From contig JAZKBK010000001.1 in the NCBI GenBank assembly GCA_040388625.1, forward strand, positions 310,001-374,000: a stretch of DNA of 64,000 nt. The letters run 5' to 3'. Positions 39,008 to 51,537 of this stretch are shown here, in pieces. The notes beneath the pieces are model-generated. The model worked only from the letters and a program-made list of their open reading frames with translations, was not told where the DNA came from and did not search any database. The translations under genes were made by a program, and so were the position numbers. The DNA is from Gemmatimonadota bacterium (lineage in GTDB: Bacteria > Gemmatimonadota > Gemmatimonadetes > Gemmatimonadales > Gemmatimonadaceae). How positions within the stretch are numbered: the stretch's first letter is position 1; every line of letters starts with the position of its first letter.

Positions 39008-39064
39008 TGTGATATAAAGCAGCCGTGTGCGCACATCCTCGTACACATCGCCAGAGTCTAGCCT

Positions 39065-39128
39065 CGCTCTGCGCAGAGCGTTACATTCACGCGAATTTTC
39101 CGCTCTGCTCATACATAAATGCAGAGCG
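39065..39128 (+). promoter_or_regulatory. Four-arm leader structure of APC permease mRNA
   Basis: Arms alternate as CGCTCTGC (39065-39072), GCAGAGCG (39073-39080), CGCTCTGC (39101-39108) and GCAGAGCG (39121-39128). The second arm can pair with the third, or the third with the fourth, so the RNA has mutually exclusive hairpins shortly before the ribosome site at 39141-39147. This is the layout of an attenuator or riboswitch, or of a double operator at DNA level. Confidence 0.5.
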
Positions 39129-39152
39129 CCGACCCGGAGCCGGAGGGCATGG

Positions 39153-40664
39153 GTGAGCAATAAAACCAGCCGTTCCGGTACCGGAGCGGATACGGCTACG
39201 GCCGAATCCAACTTCGTCAAGGCGATGACCCTGACCGACGCCACGATGCTCGTGGCGGGGACAATGATCGGGTCGGGCATCTTCATCGTTTCTGCAGACA
39301 TCGCGCGAAAGGTCCAGTCGCCACTCTGGCTCATCGCAGTCTGGGTGCTCACTGGAGTCATAACGCTGCTCGGCGCACTCGCCTACGGCGAGCTTGCCGC
39401 GATGTTTCCGCGAGCGGGCGGACAGTATGTATTTCTTCGTGAATCCATGGGTCCAATCGTAGGATTTCTCTACGGTTGGACTCTTTTCGTTGTCATACAA
39501 ACGGGCACGATCGCAGCGGTCGCCGTTGCGTTCGGAAAGTTTCTCGGCGTGCTCTGGCCGGCGATGACGCCGGATCTGTACTCTTGGTTTCCTCATTTCT
39601 CGTTCACGCTCACGGGCGCACCGGTGGACGTCGGACTGTCGCCGCAGCGTCTCATCGCACTGGTCACGGTGTGGGTACTCACCTGGATCAATCTTCGGGG
39701 CGTGCGTGAAGGAAAGCTCGTTCAGACGACGCTGACTATTGCCAAGGTGGGTGTCCTCGCCCTTCTCGTCATTCTCGGACTCACCATCGGGCGGAACGCG
39801 ACCGCCATTCTCGCGAATTTCTCGCCGGGTAATTTCGCGCCACACGTCGATCTCAACGGAGCGTTCGTCGTCGCGTTCGGCGCGGCGATGGTCGGCTCGC
39901 TCTTCTCCAGCGATTCGTGGAACAACGTGACGTTCGCTGCTGCCGAAGTTCAGAATCCCAAGCGCAACCTCCCGCTGTCGCTCGCCATCGGCGCGGGGAT
40001 GGTGACGGTTCTCTACATCCTCGGCAACTTCGCCTATCTGAGCGTGCTTCCGCTGCACGGCACGGCCAATGGTGCGACGGTGCTCGCGCGCGGTATCCAG
40101 TTCGCCACGCAGGATCGCGTCGGGACGGCAACTGCCGAAGTGATTTTCGGCGCCGCTGGCGGGAGCATAGTCGCGGCGGCGATTCTCATATCCACATTCG
40201 GTTGCAACAACGGGCTCATCCTGTCCGGTGCTCGCGTGTACTGGGCGATGGCACGCGACCGTCTCTTCTTCGCTCGCGCGGGCACACTGAGTGCACGCGA
40301 AGTCCCCGCGTTCGGACTGATCACCCAGGCGATCTGGACCAGCTTCCTGTGCCTCACGGGGACGTACAACCAGCTGCTGGCATATGTGATCTTTGCTCAG
40401 CTGCTGTTCTACGCCGCGACGACAACGGGTCTTTTCGTGCTACGTCGCACGCGTCCCGACGCCGAGCGTCCGTACAAGGCGATCGGGTACCCCGTGCTGC
40501 CGGCGTTGTATGTGGTGCTGGCGCTGGCAGTTGCTCTAACTCTCCTGCTGGCGCCGGATACGAGAACGCAGTCCGTGGCCGGACTGATCATCGTTCTCAT
40601 TGGTGTTCCTGTGTACTTTCTGTGGCGCGGTGTAGCGGGCGACGCTGCGCGCAATACTGAATGA
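39153..40664 (+). CDS. APC-family amino acid permease
   Basis: This 503-residue permease of the amino acid-polyamine-organocation superfamily has about twelve hydrophobic segments. The family signature GTMIGSGIFIVSADIA is near residues 35-50, with a GGQYVFLRESMGPIVGFLYGW block in helix 3. The GTG at 39153 is preferred over the far-upstream in-frame ATG at 39027, because a CGGAGGG ribosome site lies 6 nt before it and the upstream frame runs through the inverted repeats. The substrate is unknown. The H+-PPase gene follows after 34 nt. Confidence 0.92.
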   Translation: MSNKTSRSGTGADTATAESNFVKAMTLTDATMLVAGTMIGSGIFIVSADIARKVQSPLWLIAVWVLTGVITLLGALAYGELAAMFPRAGGQYVFLRESMGPIVGFLYGWTLFVVIQTGTIAAVAVAFGKFLGVLWPAMTPDLYSWFPHFSFTLTGAPVDVGLSPQRLIALVTVWVLTWINLRGVREGKLVQTTLTIAKVGVLALLVILGLTIGRNATAILANFSPGNFAPHVDLNGAFVVAFGAAMVGSLFSSDSWNNVTFAAAEVQNPKRNLPLSLAIGAGMVTVLYILGNFAYLSVLPLHGTANGATVLARGIQFATQDRVGTATAEVIFGAAGGSIVAAAILISTFGCNNGLILSGARVYWAMARDRLFFARAGTLSAREVPAFGLITQAIWTSFLCLTGTYNQLLAYVIFAQLLFYAATTTGLFVLRRTRPDAERPYKAIGYPVLPALYVVLALAVALTLLLAPDTRTQSVAGLIIVLIGVPVYFLWRGVAGDAARNTE

Positions 40665-44408: not shown

Positions 44409-45678
44409 CGCAGGATCGGACAAGAGCGCGACGGCGCGGCGCGGTCTGCGACGCGTCTCGCTGACGCAGTGGATTGTCGTCGCAGCAATAGTCGGGATCA
44501 TCATCGGGATCGCGTTCCCCGCGTTCGCGGTCAAGCTGGATCCGCTGTCGCAGATCTTCCTGCGCATGATCAAGTCGCTGATTGTACCGCTGATTTTCGC
44601 CACGCTCGTGGTGGGCATTGCCGGTCACGGCGACGACATGGCCAAGGTGGGCCGCCTCGCGTTGCGGTCTCTGATCTATTTCGAGCTCGTGACGACTGGC
44701 GCGCTCGTTATCGGATTGACGGCCGTCAACGTCTTAAAGCCTGGAATCGGCGTGTCGCTGGGCGGCGCGACCGCGGCTACCGGGACTGAGCTTGCGTCGC
44801 ACCCGGTTACATTCGGTGGCGTGCTGGAGCACATGGTTCCGCAGAGCTTCTTCGAAGCGGCTTACCATAACGAAGTGCTGCAGATTGTATTCTTCGCGAT
44901 TCTGTTCGCCGTAGCGCTCACGCGGCAGAAGGGCGAAAAGAAGAAGTTGATGCTCGACTTCTGCGCCGCGACGTCAGACTTGATGTTCAAGTTCACGGAG
45001 ATCGTGATGGCGTATGCACCCATCGGTATCGGTGCAGCGCTCGCCGTCACAGTCGGCCATAGCGGTATCGGCGTGCTGCTCGGTCTCGGCAAGCTCGTGG
45101 CGACGCTCTACGGCGCGCTGATCGTATTCGCGCTCGTCGTGCTGCTGCCGATCGCCGTTCTCACCCGGATTCCCCTCAAGGCATTCCTTCGCTCTGTGAG
45201 GGCACCGGCGCTGATCGCGTTCTCGACCGCTTCCTCAGAAGCAGCGCTTCCGCTAGCGATGGAGAACATGGAAGCCATGGGCGTTCCGGCCCGCATCGTG
45301 GCGTTCGTGATGCCCACGGGATATTCGTTCAACCTCGACGGAAGCACGCTGTATCTGGCGGTCGCGTCGGTATTCGCTGCGCAGGCCGGTGGAATCCACA
45401 TGACGCTCGGTCAGCAGATCGTGATGATGCTGACGCTCATGCTCACGAGCAAGGGTGTTGCTGCCGTGCCGCGCGCATCGCTCGTGATTCTGTCCGGCGC
45501 GCTGACCATGTTTGGATTGCCGCTTCAGGCCGTCGCGGTGATCCTCGGTGTCGACGCATTCATGGACATGGCGCGGACGTCGGTGAATCTCATCGGTAAT
45601 TGCCTCGCGAGCGCCGTGATGGCGAGATGGGAAGGGGAGCTCGCGCCGGCAAGCAAGACGGACACGGTGACGGCGTAG
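44401..45678 (+). CDS. Dicarboxylate/amino acid:cation symporter (SLC1)
   Basis: This 425-residue transporter of the GltP/DctA family has eight helices and two re-entrant loops. The first hairpin carries SFNLDGSTLY preceded by MPTGY, and the second region has TSKGVAAVP. It is likely to take up glutamate, aspartate or C4-dicarboxylates with protons or sodium. Aspartate ammonia-lyase at 62355 could use such aspartate, though the genes are far apart. A strong hairpin covers its stop codon. Confidence 0.94.
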   Translation: MDSAGSDKSATARRGLRRVSLTQWIVVAAIVGIIIGIAFPAFAVKLDPLSQIFLRMIKSLIVPLIFATLVVGIAGHGDDMAKVGRLALRSLIYFELVTTGALVIGLTAVNVLKPGIGVSLGGATAATGTELASHPVTFGGVLEHMVPQSFFEAAYHNEVLQIVFFAILFAVALTRQKGEKKKLMLDFCAATSDLMFKFTEIVMAYAPIGIGAALAVTVGHSGIGVLLGLGKLVATLYGALIVFALVVLLPIAVLTRIPLKAFLRSVRAPALIAFSTASSEAALPLAMENMEAMGVPARIVAFVMPTGYSFNLDGSTLYLAVASVFAAQAGGIHMTLGQQIVMMLTLMLTSKGVAAVPRASLVILSGALTMFGLPLQAVAVILGVDAFMDMARTSVNLIGNCLASAVMARWEGELAPASKTDTVTA

Positions 45679-45753: not shown

Positions 45754-46761
45754 CTAATTTGTCAGTACGACCTTGCCTATGTGCGGCTGTTCCATGCGTC
45801 TGTGTGCATCCGCCGCACGGGACAGCGGAAAGGTCGAATCAATGACTGGCAGGATCAGCCCGCGCTCCAGCAACGGCCAGATACGCAGCATCAGCTCCTG
45901 GGCGATCACGGCCTTCTCCTGCGGCGGTAGGCGGCGCATCAGCGAGCCGGTCACCGTCAGTCGCTTCTGCATGATCGGTCTCAGATCGACGGTGACGCGA
46001 CTGCCAGCCATGTACGAGATGTTGACCAGGCGGCCTTCCATCGCAAGCGCTCGAAAATTGCGCTCGACATATTCACCGCCGACCATGTCGAGTATGACAT
46101 CGACACCGCGGCCTCCGCTGCGCTCGAGCGCGACTGCGGCGAAGTCGGCTTCGTGGTAGTCGATCGCGACTTCCGCACCGAGTCGGACACAGACGCCGCA
46201 CTTTTCAGCTGAACCGGCCGTCGCGAATACTTTCGCGCCGATCGCGCGCGCCATCTGGATGGCGATCACGCCGATGCCGCTGGTGCCGCCGTGGACGAGC
46301 AACGTCTCGCCCGCGGAAAGCCGGCAACGCTGAAACACGTTGTACCACACCGTGAAAAGCGCCTCGGGAAGCGCTGCAGCCTGCACCATCGAGAAACCTT
46401 CTGGGATCGGGAGGCATTGCATCGACGGTGCAACGCATTCGGTCGCGTAGCCGCCGCCGTCCACCAGTGCGCATACCTCCTCACCGATGTTCCACACCAG
46501 CGCAGCGCGCTCACCGGCACCAGAGACGTAGCCTGCGACCTCGAGTCCGAGTATTGGCGATGCGGTGCTCGGCACCGCGTACTTGCCTGCGCGCTGGAGC
46601 AGATCGGCGTGGTTGATGCCGGCTGCTTCTACGTGGATGCGCACGTCATCGGGGCCGAGCGCCGGAACGGCTCCCTCCGTCAGATGCATCTCGTCCGGCC
46701 CGCCGGGCCTGAGTACTTCGATGTGCCGGATCGATCCCGGTTTGGAGAAGGGGCTCGACAT
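45754..46761 (-). CDS. NAD(P)H quinone oxidoreductase, zinc-binding dehydrogenase family
   Basis: This 335-residue medium-chain dehydrogenase/reductase is of the quinone oxidoreductase (PIG3-like) type. It has a GroES-like N-terminal domain (about 30-150, AGINHADLLQRAGKY) and a Rossmann domain with the nucleotide-binding HGGTSGIGVIAIQMARAIGA segment (about 158-178). The Cys/His catalytic zinc ligands of alcohol dehydrogenases are absent, as usual for this subgroup. It lies 8 nt after the amino-sugar kinase, so the minus-strand order is symporter, kinase, reductase in one unit. Confidence 0.93.
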   Translation of the reverse strand: MSSPFSKPGSIRHIEVLRPGGPDEMHLTEGAVPALGPDDVRIHVEAAGINHADLLQRAGKYAVPSTASPILGLEVAGYVSGAGERAALVWNIGEEVCALVDGGGYATECVAPSMQCLPIPEGFSMVQAAALPEALFTVWYNVFQRCRLSAGETLLVHGGTSGIGVIAIQMARAIGAKVFATAGSAEKCGVCVRLGAEVAIDYHEADFAAVALERSGGRGVDVILDMVGGEYVERNFRALAMEGRLVNISYMAGSRVTVDLRPIMQKRLTVTGSLMRRLPPQEKAVIAQELMLRIWPLLERGLILPVIDSTFPLSRAADAHRRMEQPHIGKVVLTN

Positions 46762-46769
46762 CGCGCGCG

Positions 46770-47711
46770 TCAGGCTATGGCTGAAGCAGCCTGGAGCGCG
46801 AGCTTGATCGCGCCGCGTGCACCGTCAACCTCCTCAACATGAACAGTCGCACCGGGAACAGCGACGCGGAGCCTGCGCTCCAGACGCTTCCGGAGCAGCG
46901 ATCCCTTGTGAAGCAAGCCGCCGGTCAGGGCCAGATCGAAGGCTGCCCGGTCGTCGACAAACAGTTTTCGCGCCAGCGCGCGCACGTGCAGCACAAGCTC
47001 TTCCACCGCCATGTCCACGATGCTGTTCGCACGCACGTCGTCCTGCATCGCCATTGCGAGCACCGATGGCGCAAGCGCCGCCAACGCCTCTCTATCGGCG
47101 GCAAGCGCCCATGGAATGAGTTGTTCGACCTCGTTCACCTGCGCGGCGGTGAGTATGGCGCCGGTGAGCGTCGTCTCCGGTTCACGCCCGTCGTGCGATG
47201 CAGCAACGACACTGAGCGCGCGGCGGCCGATCCATGCGCCGCTTCCCTCATCACCGAATGTGAAGCCCCACCCGCCGCAGCGAGCCAGCATCCCGGCAGG
47301 GCTGCGCCCAAACGCAATCGACCCGGTTCCGGAGATGAGAATCACACCGGAGCGATCGCCGAATGCATCCGCGAGCGCGATGCTCGCGTCGGTCTCGACG
47401 ACGACTTCGTCGGCAATCTCCATGCGCGACAGCGCATCCTGCAACGCGATCTGCTCGCTCTCCCGGCCAGTGCCTGCAACGCCGGCATACAACACGCGCG
47501 GCACGACGCCGGTCAGCGCCGCGCTCTCGAGCGCAGCGACGACAACCGCCGCAATTGTATCCGCGCAGGCGTCGGCGTTGCCGGGCGCCATTGCAGCGCC
47601 GGGCCCAACGCTCTCCGCGATCTGGTCGCCAGAGAGCGATGCGATGATGACGCGCGTCTTGCTTCCACCGGCGTCGATACCTACTACGATTTCCGATTCC
47701 GAATCACTCAT
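46770..47711 (-). CDS. BadF/NagK-type amino-sugar kinase
   Basis: This 313-residue kinase of the ASKHA fold is similar to bacterial N-acetylglucosamine or N-acetylmuramic acid kinases. The phosphate-1 loop VGIDAGGSKTRVIIASL is at the N-terminus (about 8-24). The phosphate-2 motif GVILISGTGSIAFG and the ALTGGLLHKG adenosine region follow in the expected order. It overlaps the sodium:solute symporter gene by 4 nt, which suggests phosphorylation of a sugar brought in by that carrier. The exact sugar is inferred from the neighbouring NamZ-like enzyme. Confidence 0.85.
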   Translation of the reverse strand: MSDSESEIVVGIDAGGSKTRVIIASLSGDQIAESVGPGAAMAPGNADACADTIAAVVVAALESAALTGVVPRVLYAGVAGTGRESEQIALQDALSRMEIADEVVVETDASIALADAFGDRSGVILISGTGSIAFGRSPAGMLARCGGWGFTFGDEGSGAWIGRRALSVVAASHDGREPETTLTGAILTAAQVNEVEQLIPWALAADREALAALAPSVLAMAMQDDVRANSIVDMAVEELVLHVRALARKLFVDDRAAFDLALTGGLLHKGSLLRKRLERRLRVAVPGATVHVEEVDGARGAIKLALQAASAIA

Positions 47712-49222
47712 TCTGCGTCATCAACCCTGATTCGCGCGCTTCCGTGCGGGAAGAGCGACGTGAATATTCCGACACCGACTGTTACCACCGTCCCGATCAA
47801 AACGTACCACGGCCAGGCAATCGAGCCGATTGGCGCGAGTGCCGGCCACAGCGCGGAGAGCTGCTTCGCGAACACGACCACGCTCATCACGAGAATGCCT
47901 ACAGCCATTCCCGTAATGGCGTCACGCTGCTGCGCGCGGGCCCACATAATGCCGAGCGCAAAACCACCGAGCAACGCGCCGTACGTGAACGACGCAATCG
48001 AGAGCGCCACGACGACCACGGGCGTACCCTGCTGCTTGTACAGTAGCGCTATGATGAGCAGCAACAAGCCCCAGGCCAGACTCACCAGCTTCGCCACCTT
48101 GAGTGTGCGCGGGTCGTTGGCGTCGCGATGGGTGAGCGGCAGGTAGATGTCGTGCACTGTCGCGGCGGCCAGCGAATTGATCGCGCCGGAGTGAGCGCTC
48201 ATCGTTGCCGCCAGAATCGCCGCCACCAGCAGGCCGATCAGGCCCGTCGGCATCGCCGTCACTATGAACGTTGGAAAGATCTTGTCGGGCGAGTCGAAGG
48301 TGTGAGCACCGAAGTACGCCCACAGTCCCGCGCCTATCATGAGGAAGATGGCGAACTGAAAGAATACCGCAAAGCCGCTCCCTATGAGCGCGCGCCGCGC
48401 ATCACGCAGCGACGATGCAGTCATGAGCCGTTGCACGATCACCTGATCGGCGCCGTGTGACGCCATCGACAGGAATGCACCGCCGAGCACGCCCGCCATC
48501 AGGGTCTGCGGCTTGTCGAAACCGGTGTAGAGATCGATTACCTGGAGCTTTCCAGCCGCTGCGGCAGAGTGGATGATATGGCTCCAACCACCCCCAACTC
48601 CGCGTCCGATGATTACCACGGCGGCCGCCGCGCCGAGGAGATACACGCAGGTCTGGATGACGTCAGTCCAGACGACGGCGCGCACGCCGCCAAAATACGC
48701 GTAGATCAACGTGAGAGCGCCCAGTACCAGAATCGCGATCGGCATGACCACTGTCGCGGGAAGAATCGGTGACAGGATCAGCGCGATTGGAATCGCAGTT
48801 GCGAAGACACGGACCGAATCCGCGAAGGCGCGCGTGAACATGAAGACGACCGAAGCGAATCGACGCGTCGACACGCCGAAGCGGTTCTCGAGCAACGCGT
48901 ACGCTGTTACGAGATTGCCGCCGTAGTAGCGTGGTAGGAGTACGTATGCGACAACTATTCGGCCGACGATGTATCCCGCGGCGATCTGGAGAAAGCCCAG
49001 GTTCCCGATGTAGGCCAGGCCGGGAATCGAGATGACGGTGAGTGCGCTGGTCTCGGTCGCCACGATCGAGAAGAGAACTGCCCACCACGGAATCGTGTGG
49101 TCGGCGACAAAGTAGTCGCGTGTGTTCTTCTGATTGCGCCCCAGATAGACGCCCAGCAGCGTCGTTCCGACCAGGTACGCAACGAGTACAATAAGGTCGA
49201 GGGCGGTGAATGAGTTCTTCAT
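47708..49222 (-). CDS. Sodium:solute symporter (SSS family)
   Basis: This 504-residue carrier has about thirteen hydrophobic segments. The typical SSS blocks are DYFVADHTIPWWAVLFSIVATETSALTVISIPG near helix 2, the R-F-G-x-S-x-R segment and the ATMSAHSGAINSLAAATVHDIY region near helix 9. It is likely to import a sugar or amino sugar with sodium. The ATG at 49222 lies inside a 16-bp hairpin, together with the upstream GAGGG that could serve as ribosome site, so initiation may be restricted. It is the first gene of a three-gene unit with the kinase. Confidence 0.93.
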   Translation of the reverse strand: MKNSFTALDLIVLVAYLVGTTLLGVYLGRNQKNTRDYFVADHTIPWWAVLFSIVATETSALTVISIPGLAYIGNLGFLQIAAGYIVGRIVVAYVLLPRYYGGNLVTAYALLENRFGVSTRRFASVVFMFTRAFADSVRVFATAIPIALILSPILPATVVMPIAILVLGALTLIYAYFGGVRAVVWTDVIQTCVYLLGAAAAVVIIGRGVGGGWSHIIHSAAAAGKLQVIDLYTGFDKPQTLMAGVLGGAFLSMASHGADQVIVQRLMTASSLRDARRALIGSGFAVFFQFAIFLMIGAGLWAYFGAHTFDSPDKIFPTFIVTAMPTGLIGLLVAAILAATMSAHSGAINSLAAATVHDIYLPLTHRDANDPRTLKVAKLVSLAWGLLLLIIALLYKQQGTPVVVVALSIASFTYGALLGGFALGIMWARAQQRDAITGMAVGILVMSVVVFAKQLSALWPALAPIGSIAWPWYVLIGTVVTVGVGIFTSLFPHGSARIRVDDAE

Positions 49223-49234
49223 TCACCGCCCTCG
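49198..49234 (-). promoter_or_regulatory. Hairpin burying the symporter start codon
   Basis: A 16-bp perfect stem pairs 49198-49213 with 49219-49234, with a 5-nt loop. On the minus-strand mRNA the arm on the 5' side holds GAGGGCGGTGA and the start ATG. Such a structure would block ribosome entry unless it is opened, or serve as terminator of the IscA-like gene before it. Confidence 0.65.
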
Positions 49235-49253
49235 GTAGTGCACGGAAACTCGA

Positions 49254-49610
49254 CTACGCCGAGAAGGATGATCCGCAGCCGCAGCCGCCCGTCGCGTTCG
49301 GGTTCTTGAAGGTGAAGCCCGATCCCTGCATGGACGTCACGTAATCGATCGTCACGTTGTTGACATACTGCGCGGAGAACGGATCGACGAAGACGCGATA
49401 GCCGTCCTGCGAGAGGATCAGGTCGTCGTCCGCAGGCTTGTCCTCGATCAACAGCGAGTACTTGAAGCCGCTGCAGCCGCCGGGCTGGATGCTGACGCGA
49501 AGGCCGCCTTCGTCAGGCGAGACCTTCTCGATCTCCATGAATTTCTGCACCTCGACGCCTGCTGATGGAGTCAGGGTCAGGTTGATTTCTGGTTGGCTGG
49601 ATACCGCCAT
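49254..49610 (-). CDS. IscA/ErpA-type iron-sulfur carrier
   Basis: This 118-residue A-type carrier delivers Fe-S clusters to apo-proteins. Three conserved cysteines are seen in the QPGGCSGFKY and C-terminal GGCGCGSSF motifs. ATG 49610 is chosen because AAAGGAG precedes it by 7 nt; an upstream in-frame GTG or ATG would add a basic low-quality extension. It lies 31 nt before the symporter gene on the same strand. Complex III and the other iron-sulfur enzymes encoded here are possible clients. Confidence 0.93.
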   Translation of the reverse strand: MAVSSQPEINLTLTPSAGVEVQKFMEIEKVSPDEGGLRVSIQPGGCSGFKYSLLIEDKPADDDLILSQDGYRVFVDPFSAQYVNNVTIDYVTSMQGSGFTFKNPNATGGCGCGSSFSA

Positions 49611-49790
49611 GGCTCGCTCCTTTGGTGTAGCTGAAATATAAACGGAAAATACGACTTTCCAGCGCCCCGTTACACCCACGGTGGATGGCCGGTTCCGGGG
49701 ACGGACCAATTATTTACAGCCGCGGTAATGGCAGGAAGGCTCGCCCTTTGCGATTATATCCTCACCCCACAACCTTCGGAATCCCACGTG

Positions 49791-51089
49791 ATGCCGCGAC
49801 CACTCGTCCGACCGCTGTTCGTGCTTCTGCTCTTCACCGCGGGATGCTCAGTCGTGTACCACAAGCTGGACGATCCAACGGGCCTCCCCGAAGCGAACGT
49901 GCGGCCCGGCATATCGGTGTTGCTGAGTGACAGTATCGCCCTCGTCGCGGGCAAACGGGTCGGATTGCTGACGAACGCCAGCGGGGTAGATGAGCACGGC
50001 AGAAGCGACGTCAAGCTGCTCATGACGGATAAGCGCGCCACGAGATCCAACGTCCATCTCGTCGAGCTGTTTTCGCCCGAGCACGGGTTCGCGACTACTC
50101 TGGACAGGACCGGCATCGCGTCCGGAATCGATCCGGCGACCGGGCTGGTTGTCATCTCCCTGTACACCAACCAGACCATCCCGCCCCCCGATACGACTCT
50201 TCGCGCGATCGACGTTTTCGTCGTCGACCTCCCGGATGTCGGCTCGCGCACCTGGACATACGATGGCGCCGTGGTTTACGCGATGCGCGCAGCTGCGCGG
50301 GCGCACAAGCCGATCGTGGTACTGGACCGTCCCAACCCGATCACCGGATCGCTCGTCGAAGGGCCCATGCTCGACTCGGCACTCTCGAATGCAGATGACC
50401 CTGCGCCGGGCAAGCCCGGACTCGCATGGGCGCTATATCCGATTCCGCTCCGGCACGGTATGACGATGGGCGAGCTTGCGCGGTTTTACAACGCCGAGCT
50501 CAAGATCGGAGCTGACTTGCACGTTGTGCCCGCAGCACGGTGGAGCCGCGAAGTCTGGTTCGACCGAACCGGGCTTCCGTTCGTCGCTCCTTCGCCAAGC
50601 TTGCAGTCGTTTCCCGCCATCATGCTCTACCCGGGTCTGGTCCCGTTCGAGGCGACCAATCTGTCAGTGGGCCGCGGAACCAACGAGGCGTTCCGGCGGA
50701 TCGGAGCGCCGTGGATGGATCCCAAGCGTGTGATCGAACTGCTCAAGGACCGCCCGATTCGCGGCGTGCGATTCTCTGCCGTCGACTTTACTCCGGTTTC
50801 TCCGGGCGACAACAAGTATCCCGGCCAGCTGGTCCACGGGATAAGGATCGAGGTGACGGAGCGCAGCCAGCTGCAGACGAGCCGGCTGGCCGCCGGACTG
50901 CTCGCAGCGATCCACCAGGCCTATCCGACCGATTTCACGATCGATTCGACGCGGTTCGATCGACTGTTCGGATCCCCGTCCGCGAGACGGGCGATCCTGA
51001 GCGGGGCCGACCCCGACGCTGTCATCGATTCGACCTACGGCCCGGCGTATGCGTTTCGTCAGCGTGTATCGAAATATCTCATCTACTAA
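49791..51089 (+). CDS. namZ: NamZ/DUF1343 lipoprotein, exo-N-acetylmuramidase-like
   Basis: This 432-residue lipoprotein of the DUF1343 family has members that release N-acetylmuramic acid from the non-reducing end of muropeptides (NamZ, glycosidase family 171). A lipoprotein signal ends in TAGC at Cys18-19. The family blocks VGLLTNASGVDEHGR, LFSPEHGFATTLDRTG, DLPDVGSRTWTYDGAV, LDRPNPITGSLVEGP and PFEATNLSVGRGTNEAF are all present. ATG 49791 is chosen because it starts this signal; an upstream ATG at 49728 is not needed. The divergent kinase and symporter could take up the product. Confidence 0.92.
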   Translation: MPRPLVRPLFVLLLFTAGCSVVYHKLDDPTGLPEANVRPGISVLLSDSIALVAGKRVGLLTNASGVDEHGRSDVKLLMTDKRATRSNVHLVELFSPEHGFATTLDRTGIASGIDPATGLVVISLYTNQTIPPPDTTLRAIDVFVVDLPDVGSRTWTYDGAVVYAMRAAARAHKPIVVLDRPNPITGSLVEGPMLDSALSNADDPAPGKPGLAWALYPIPLRHGMTMGELARFYNAELKIGADLHVVPAARWSREVWFDRTGLPFVAPSPSLQSFPAIMLYPGLVPFEATNLSVGRGTNEAFRRIGAPWMDPKRVIELLKDRPIRGVRFSAVDFTPVSPGDNKYPGQLVHGIRIEVTERSQLQTSRLAAGLLAAIHQAYPTDFTIDSTRFDRLFGSPSARRAILSGADPDAVIDSTYGPAYAFRQRVSKYLIY

Positions 51090-51100
51090 GAGCATAGTAG
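51083..51100. promoter_or_regulatory. Third BlaI/MecI-like operator
   Basis: The sequence CTACTAAGAGCATAGTAG has perfect 6-bp arms and the TACTA-N6-TAGTA form. It matches the operator at 26010-26025 in 14 of 16 positions. It overlaps the namZ stop (51087-51089) and lies 38 bp before the small lipoprotein ATG. Confidence 0.6.
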
Positions 51101-51137
51101 CCGAGGTGCACGAATCGACCATTTTCCCGGAGCATCA

Positions 51138-51470
51138 ATGAAGAAACTGATAGTCATGCTGGGCCTCGCGGTGGCCGCGACGGCCTGCGGCCCGAGACAG
51201 GTCGAGGTCAAGACGGGACCGCAGCCGGTGAGCGAGGTAACGCTCAAGGTGACCAACAACCTCTCTCAGGCGGCCAACATCTACGTGGTCAGCAGCGGCA
51301 GCGACATCTTTCTCAAGCAGGTCGGGGCGAACAGCACGGAGACCATGAATGTGCCGGGTATCTCCGCTGGCGCCACGGTAGGATTGAAGGCGACACCGAT
51401 CGACGGCTCCCGCTCCTACACGCGCGACAACGTAACGCTGTCGGGATTGTACCAATGGCAGATACCGTAG
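51138..51470 (+). CDS. Small lipoprotein, unknown
   Basis: This 110-residue protein has a lipoprotein signal (MKKLIVMLGLAVAATAC, Cys17). The rest is a beta-rich domain (about 35-110, SEVTLKVTNNLSQAANIYVV) that looks like a small Ig-like or FixH-like fold. I do not recognise the family. A BlaI-type operator sits just before it, suggesting control by the repressor at 25625. It follows namZ but may have its own promoter. Localisation to the outer or inner membrane is inferred from the lipobox. Confidence 0.75.
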   Translation: MKKLIVMLGLAVAATACGPRQVEVKTGPQPVSEVTLKVTNNLSQAANIYVVSSGSDIFLKQVGANSTETMNVPGISAGATVGLKATPIDGSRSYTRDNVTLSGLYQWQIP

Positions 51471-51537
51471 CGGTTGCAGCGCGCTTCGCGGTCAAACACC
51501 TAGCCCGATAGCCTCCGGCGGGCTACCTTCCACGCCG

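Follow-up and report, generated by a model that had tools for sequence, protein, structure and literature searches.

A probable iscA terminator merged with the start of a symporter gene in Gemmatimonadaceae

At the start of a sodium:solute symporter gene there is a hairpin which is probably the terminator of the preceding iscA-like gene merged with the symporter start, so placed that its closure might be opposed by translation initiation; we infer the termination, the readthrough and the initiation gate from the sequence. In the window, by which is meant the whole stretch of 64,000 nt of DNA analysed, the terminator-like hairpin occupies 49198-49234 on the minus strand, and direct reading confirms an earlier note on this DNA that had described a 16-bp hairpin with the symporter ATG and a purine-rich stretch buried in its stem; the stem is a perfect one, and the purine-rich stretch includes a Shine-Dalgarno-like GAGG. 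The 5' arm (49234-49219, CGAGGGCGGTGAATGA) holds the GAGG (49230-49233) and, 7 nt 3' of it, the ATG (49220-49222), and is followed by a 5-nt loop (49218-49214), the 3' arm (49213-49198, TCATTCACCGCCCTCG) and a U-rich tail (49187-49197, ACCTTATTGTA) that is read as codons 9-12 of the symporter.

The genes and the fold

The gene upstream codes for an IscA/ErpA-like Fe-S protein (49254-49610, minus strand; PF01521, TIGR00049) and ends with a TAG at 49256-49254, leaving a spacer of 19 nt (49235-49253) before the stem. The symporter (SSF, 504 aa; 47708-49222, minus strand; PF00474, TIGR00813) overlaps by 4 nt at its 3' end with a gene for a BadF/BcrAD-type ATPase of N-acetylglucosamine-kinase-like character (46770-47711, minus strand), which is likely its downstream operon partner. 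A gene for a NamZ-type exo-beta-N-acetylmuramidase (49782-51086, plus strand) is divergent from the iscA-like gene and stands near the symporter and the sugar-kinase-like gene; amino sugars may be what the symporter imports, the substrate being a guess. A TGA lies in frame directly 5' of the symporter ATG and no in-frame ATG, GTG or TTG occurs between that ATG and the first transmembrane helix, and therefore the start is correctly placed and does not lie further upstream. A start codon downstream of the hairpin was looked for and is rejected on the same count, and the loop codons behave as coding sequence would, varying synonymously (ACT/ACA/ACC) and showing one exact 3-nt deletion.

The 37-mer of the window's hairpin folds at -30.6 kcal/mol as against a mean of -7.6 for its shuffles (z -9.8), and 81 nt around it still give a fold z of -5.5. 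It is the only perfect stem of at least 14 bp with a loop of 3-10 nt in the window, and none occurs in 20 first-order random sequences of equal length. The earlier note had entertained opening of the stem by temperature; with a stability of about -30 kcal/mol at 37 °C this is unlikely, the stem of an RNA thermometer being a marginal one. A search of Rfam across 48900-49900 with E up to 1 returned no match, and so no curated RNA family or riboswitch. That the hairpin serves as a terminator for the opposite strand is rejected, the plus strand having no T-run after the stem. Two further ideas were discarded by looking at the organism's own genome. A mobile or repeated element is rejected as the palindrome is single-copy there, and a genome-wide habit of start-embedded terminators is rejected too: across 264 kb (the window and 200 kb of contig C1, with 207 crude gene calls from a rough gene caller) no second clear case was seen, no other called start having a terminator-like hairpin on it, and five more such hairpins are found further within ORFs of the same strand.

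Conservation and constraint on the nucleotides

The exact arm-loop-arm pattern occurs in 17 of 179 family genomes and in three of 35 genera (g1, which is the window's genus, g5 and g7), while a reversed control pattern occurs in none of the 179. When the symporter starts of these three genera were read regardless of their fit to the pattern, a hairpin was present at every readable one (four of four in g1, 15 of 15 in g5, four of four in g7; 23 of 23 in all), some having missed the exact pattern only through G-U pairs or other small changes. For g5 the informative genomes were 15 of 19, with G186, G196 and G201 giving no symporter and G188 one that came without its start. Counting G-U pairs, the 23 stems are of 12-19 bp, and their loops are of 3-14 nt. 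The closest named records are MAGs of uncultured Gemmatimonadetes/Gemmatimonadaceae, and for some of them isolate names that include fen and palsa suggest wet permafrost soils.

No uninterrupted hairpin of more than 10 bp lies on any of 28 placed starts from other genera. Where bulges are allowed, a hairpin resembling CGAGGGCGG..CCTCCTCG but lacking a U-tail is present in locus L021, and although this locus belongs to a different genus and has another gene upstream it keeps GCGAGGGCGG before the symporter start; this imperfect fold is perhaps a decayed relic, or chance. L030, again with bulges allowed, has a strong fold at the start that shares no sequence. By comparison of these starts, the hairpin on the symporter start is to be regarded as neither chance nor a private oddity. 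Descent of the hairpin loci as a single clade is rejected, since symporter trees (one with 20 of the 23 hairpin loci, the other with 16 of the 23 and seven of 17 sister-family loci) need four to five changes, at least two of which are forced by well-supported branches. As the core is nearly identical in all hairpin loci, the simpler guess would be that the hairpin is old and was lost in places, though weakly supported forks in the trees make this a tentative one.

The U-rich tail is a shared feature of these loci. In the 10 nt after the stem the 23 loci have on average 6.6 T (range 4-8) versus 2.4 in the 28 relatives without the hairpin, two loci (L017 and L077) being left out of the hairpin and U-tract counts as their alignment began too late. 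The longest T runs among the relatives reach 7 (GATTTTTTTGTC, in g5), and the weakest tail is that of the window's genus, where ACCTTATTGTA has four T in nine and one congener has three. Third-position T in codons 9, 10 and 11 reaches 0.83, 0.87 and 0.87 in the hairpin loci, falls to 0.00 and 0.04 in the two codons that follow codon 11, averages 0.128 over the gene, and in the 28 relatives without the hairpin stands at 0.07, 0.04 and 0.04. Hydrophobic codons account partly for such a tail, but it is absent from relatives whose symporters have a transmembrane helix at this position, and judged by the third-position T of codons 9-11 the U-tract would be kept by selection.

Synonymous sites of the 3' arm tell of the same kind of constraint. 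Among 202 invariant amino-acid columns in 20 full-length genes (Met and Trp excluded, and the fragmentary genes of L050, L054 and L057 left out) the codon is also invariant in only five, and four of these are the consecutive codons 5-8 (F5 T6 A7 L8) that make up the 3' arm. Being frozen at synonymous sites, these codons are therefore under selection as nucleotides. The earlier note had offered, as one option, a terminator lying on the start by chance; the terminator half of that option is what fits best, given the U-tract and a position that is usual for iscA terminators, and the chance half is contradicted by the synonymous constraint on the 3' arm.

In the 299 cells that 13 core pairs make over the 23 loci, the departures from the commonest pair amount to six G-U pairs and one mismatch, and in one locus the lower stem has passed from AAAT/ATTT to AGGT/ACCT with pairing kept. 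Formal covariation signal is weak because the stem core hardly varies. G-U changes are meaningful for an RNA and not for a DNA-binding dimer, and this bears on the reading of the inverted repeat as a DNA operator bound by a dimeric transcription factor, for which speaks that a long and nearly invariant inverted repeat adjoins a transporter operon. Beyond the mostly G-U character of the core changes, the span of the repeat shifts by 1-3 nt among loci, a one-sided U-tract is not an operator feature, and the site stands alone: in the own genome there is no second one at up to three mismatches, and of the 17 family genomes that contain the exact pattern 16 have a single site and one has two copies on two contigs. 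An operator is accordingly held to be very improbable. Third-position C-to-T change in the 3' arm is seen in none of the 23 loci, even though G-U pairing would survive it, and the near-invariance of the core sequence exceeds what a plain terminator needs. It may be held by a triple load on the same letters, or by a sequence-specific factor.

Distance from iscA and the case for a terminator

Between the iscA-like stop and the stem, 18 of the 19 g5 and g7 loci have 26 nt and one has 25; all four loci of the window's genus have 19. The sequence of the 26-nt spacer is unconstrained, with less than 45% identity in 107 of 153 equal-length pairs and as little as 12% in the lowest, and since the sequence is free and the distance constant it is therefore the length that is kept. 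As a side observation, in 18 of the 19 g5 and g7 loci (L007, L009, L062-L071 and others) the distance from the first letter of the iscA stop codon to the symporter start is 42 nt, and 42 being a multiple of three the iscA frame continues after its stop into the symporter frame (a few checked by eye); the corresponding figure in the window's genus is 34 nt. A terminating ribosome covers some 12-15 nt downstream. The stem begins beyond that footprint, whether at 19 or at 25-26 nt past the stop, and so the proposal of the earlier note that ribosomes finishing the iscA-like gene open the hairpin is unsupported.

Hairpins between these two genes are not restricted to the three genera. In sister families 15 of 17 loci have an iscA-like gene upstream within the stretch taken, and in 11 of these 15 a hairpin, most often with a T-rich tail, lies 23-31 nt past the iscA stop and before the symporter start; the other four have hairpins at 37 and 41 nt (two loci), a far one only (one locus) or none (one locus). 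Within the family, 11 loci of other genera have iscA upstream. Seven of them, with gaps of at least 83 nt, all have gap hairpins of 8-16 bp, six of these being at least 14 bp, and the four with short gaps have no hairpin of 9 bp or more, the iscA and symporter genes overlapping in one. As hairpins occur in most iscA-symporter gaps, it is therefore usual for a terminator to separate the two genes, and in g1, g5 and g7 this terminator, as far as position and sequence allow it to be called one, keeps its customary distance from iscA or nearly so and is overlapped by the symporter start.

A stable stem with a short loop, a U-tract directly after it and a position shortly after iscA are all found here, and the terminator reading of the hairpin and U-tract is on this showing a likely one, somewhat more so than the merged arrangement as a whole. 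For intrinsic terminators one study puts the median distance between coding end and transcript end at 37-57 nt for several species and at 66-76 nt for Streptomyces (PMC12207403). The GC-rich stem, short loop, immediate U-tract and short distance past the upstream stop codon are those of intrinsic terminators, and the difference is that here the 3' arm and the U-tract are codons 5-11 of the next gene and the 5' arm is its ribosome site. Counting against a terminator are the weakest tail and the 19-nt spacer being found in the window's own genus, as are the scatter of the hairpin group over more than one clade on the symporter trees and a core that is more invariant than termination requires.

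Initiation at the hairpin and how it might work

The GAGG is inside the stem and invariant in all 23 loci. The start codon itself is within the stem, as the earlier note had it, in the window's genus only; in the other two genera the ATG or TTG occupies the top of the stem or the loop, with the GAGG still paired, TTG being the start in five of the 23. The computed cost of freeing the GAGG has a median of 1.6 kcal/mol before the 3' arm exists versus 14.8 in the full hairpin, which supports the sequestration of the Shine-Dalgarno that had been proposed, and folds without the hairpin (taken with up to 70 nt upstream) are weaker by a median of 25.8 kcal/mol. That the hairpin gates initiation, taken alone, is a possibility to which we give rather less than even weight, as it follows from geometry only.

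With GAGG sequestered in 23 of 23 loci and with a near-invariant core that could mean a sequence-specific binder, the element could be a purely translational switch in which the ribosome site is hidden, the hairpin is opened or held by some factor such as a protein or a small RNA, and the U-tail is incidental. Such a switch leaves unexplained why third-position T is restricted to the three codons after the stem and why the distance from stop to hairpin is common with that of ordinary iscA terminators, and it is thought improbable. A strong terminator and good symporter expression could also coexist if the symporter were transcribed from a promoter of its own, as an almost leaderless mRNA that starts in the 5' arm or loop, with the hairpin only ending iscA. 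However the -10 region would then fall within the invariant CGAGGGCGGTGA, a scan of 46500-51500 for sigma-70-type promoters found none, and there would be no function for the invariant GAGG. Five of the 23 starts are TTG, a poor start for leaderless initiation. A leaderless origin is considered as improbable as the translational switch.

In the merged arrangement preferred here, the symporter coding sequence would overlap the intrinsic (Rho-independent) terminator of the iscA-like gene, the 5' arm being the symporter ribosome-binding site, codons 2-4 the hairpin top, codons 5-8 the 3' arm and codons 9-11 the U-tract. Transcripts with the whole 5' arm would have to pass the terminator to encode the symporter and the kinase-like gene. 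Because the U-tract is inside the coding sequence, symporter expression would therefore need readthrough, unless transcription starts within the arm. The GAGG and start codon would be unpaired when they emerge from an RNA polymerase that is leaving iscA, and a 30S subunit bound before codons 5-9 are transcribed might keep the hairpin open so that transcription and translation continue together. Without an early 30S the stem would close and most polymerases would release at the U-tract, and any readthrough RNA with a closed stem would have its ribosome site shut. It is from the GAGG being cheap to open before the 3' arm and costly after it that an early ribosome subunit is proposed as the antiterminator. 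The fullest form of the proposal, a dual-coding attenuator in which iscA terminator, symporter ribosome site and the first 11 symporter codons are one and initiation alone licenses the downstream operon, is put forward tentatively and is judged somewhat less likely even than the gate by itself.

The hairpin, then, has the build of an intrinsic terminator and the presumed working of an attenuator, for which a precedent exists in the E. coli ampC attenuator, where the frd terminator lies in the ampC leader and ribosome binding has been proposed to oppose hairpin formation. In both, the terminator of the upstream operon is the attenuator of the next gene, and a ribosome site that is accessible and then hidden is, by computation, present here as well; the ampC terminator, though, is in a leader with its own promoter upstream, whereas the one here straddles the true start and is coding. 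The M. tuberculosis rpfB RNA switch also has an intrinsic terminator with partial readthrough near the start of the gene controlled, but that terminator is in the 5' UTR and has an alternative antiterminator fold (PMC6009663). No competing fold of that sort was found at the symporter start with up to 70 nt upstream considered. In E. coli premature 3' ends occur in 5' UTRs and ORFs, and that of mdtJI is 6 nt into the ORF (PMC7815308), so that transcription stops within a gene's first codons for regulation as may happen here, although for mdtJI the stop is reported to be Rho-dependent and to involve a small upstream ORF rather than the hairpin and U-tract of an upstream gene. No described terminator spanning the start codon of the next gene was found in the literature, as far as the accessible text of the sources goes, and this is not proof of absence.

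If true, the arrangement would be a conserved case of a terminator and a protein start written in one set of letters, in which codon usage gives way to a U-tract within a high-GC gene, and would offer a compact test of whether an initiating ribosome alone can be an antiterminator. Terminator predictors that drop matches inside coding sequences and start-site predictors blind to terminators would both miss such elements. It would also suggest a set readthrough as the link between the Fe-S assembly gene and the transporter operon, which are neighbours in many genomes of the order. Two other sites in the same genome call for mention. In the window, at 39449-39491 on the plus strand, a 14-bp stem (two G-U pairs) with a 7-nt loop is followed by TTTTCGTTGT within a transporter-like ORF (39027-40664), and is a possible ORF-internal terminator. 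On contig C1 (G000:C1, about 44441-44472; L085) a 10-bp stem followed by ACTTTTTTTC lies just inside a crude ORF call and 18 nt past the previous ORF, which may be a misplaced ORF start or a second start-embedded terminator.
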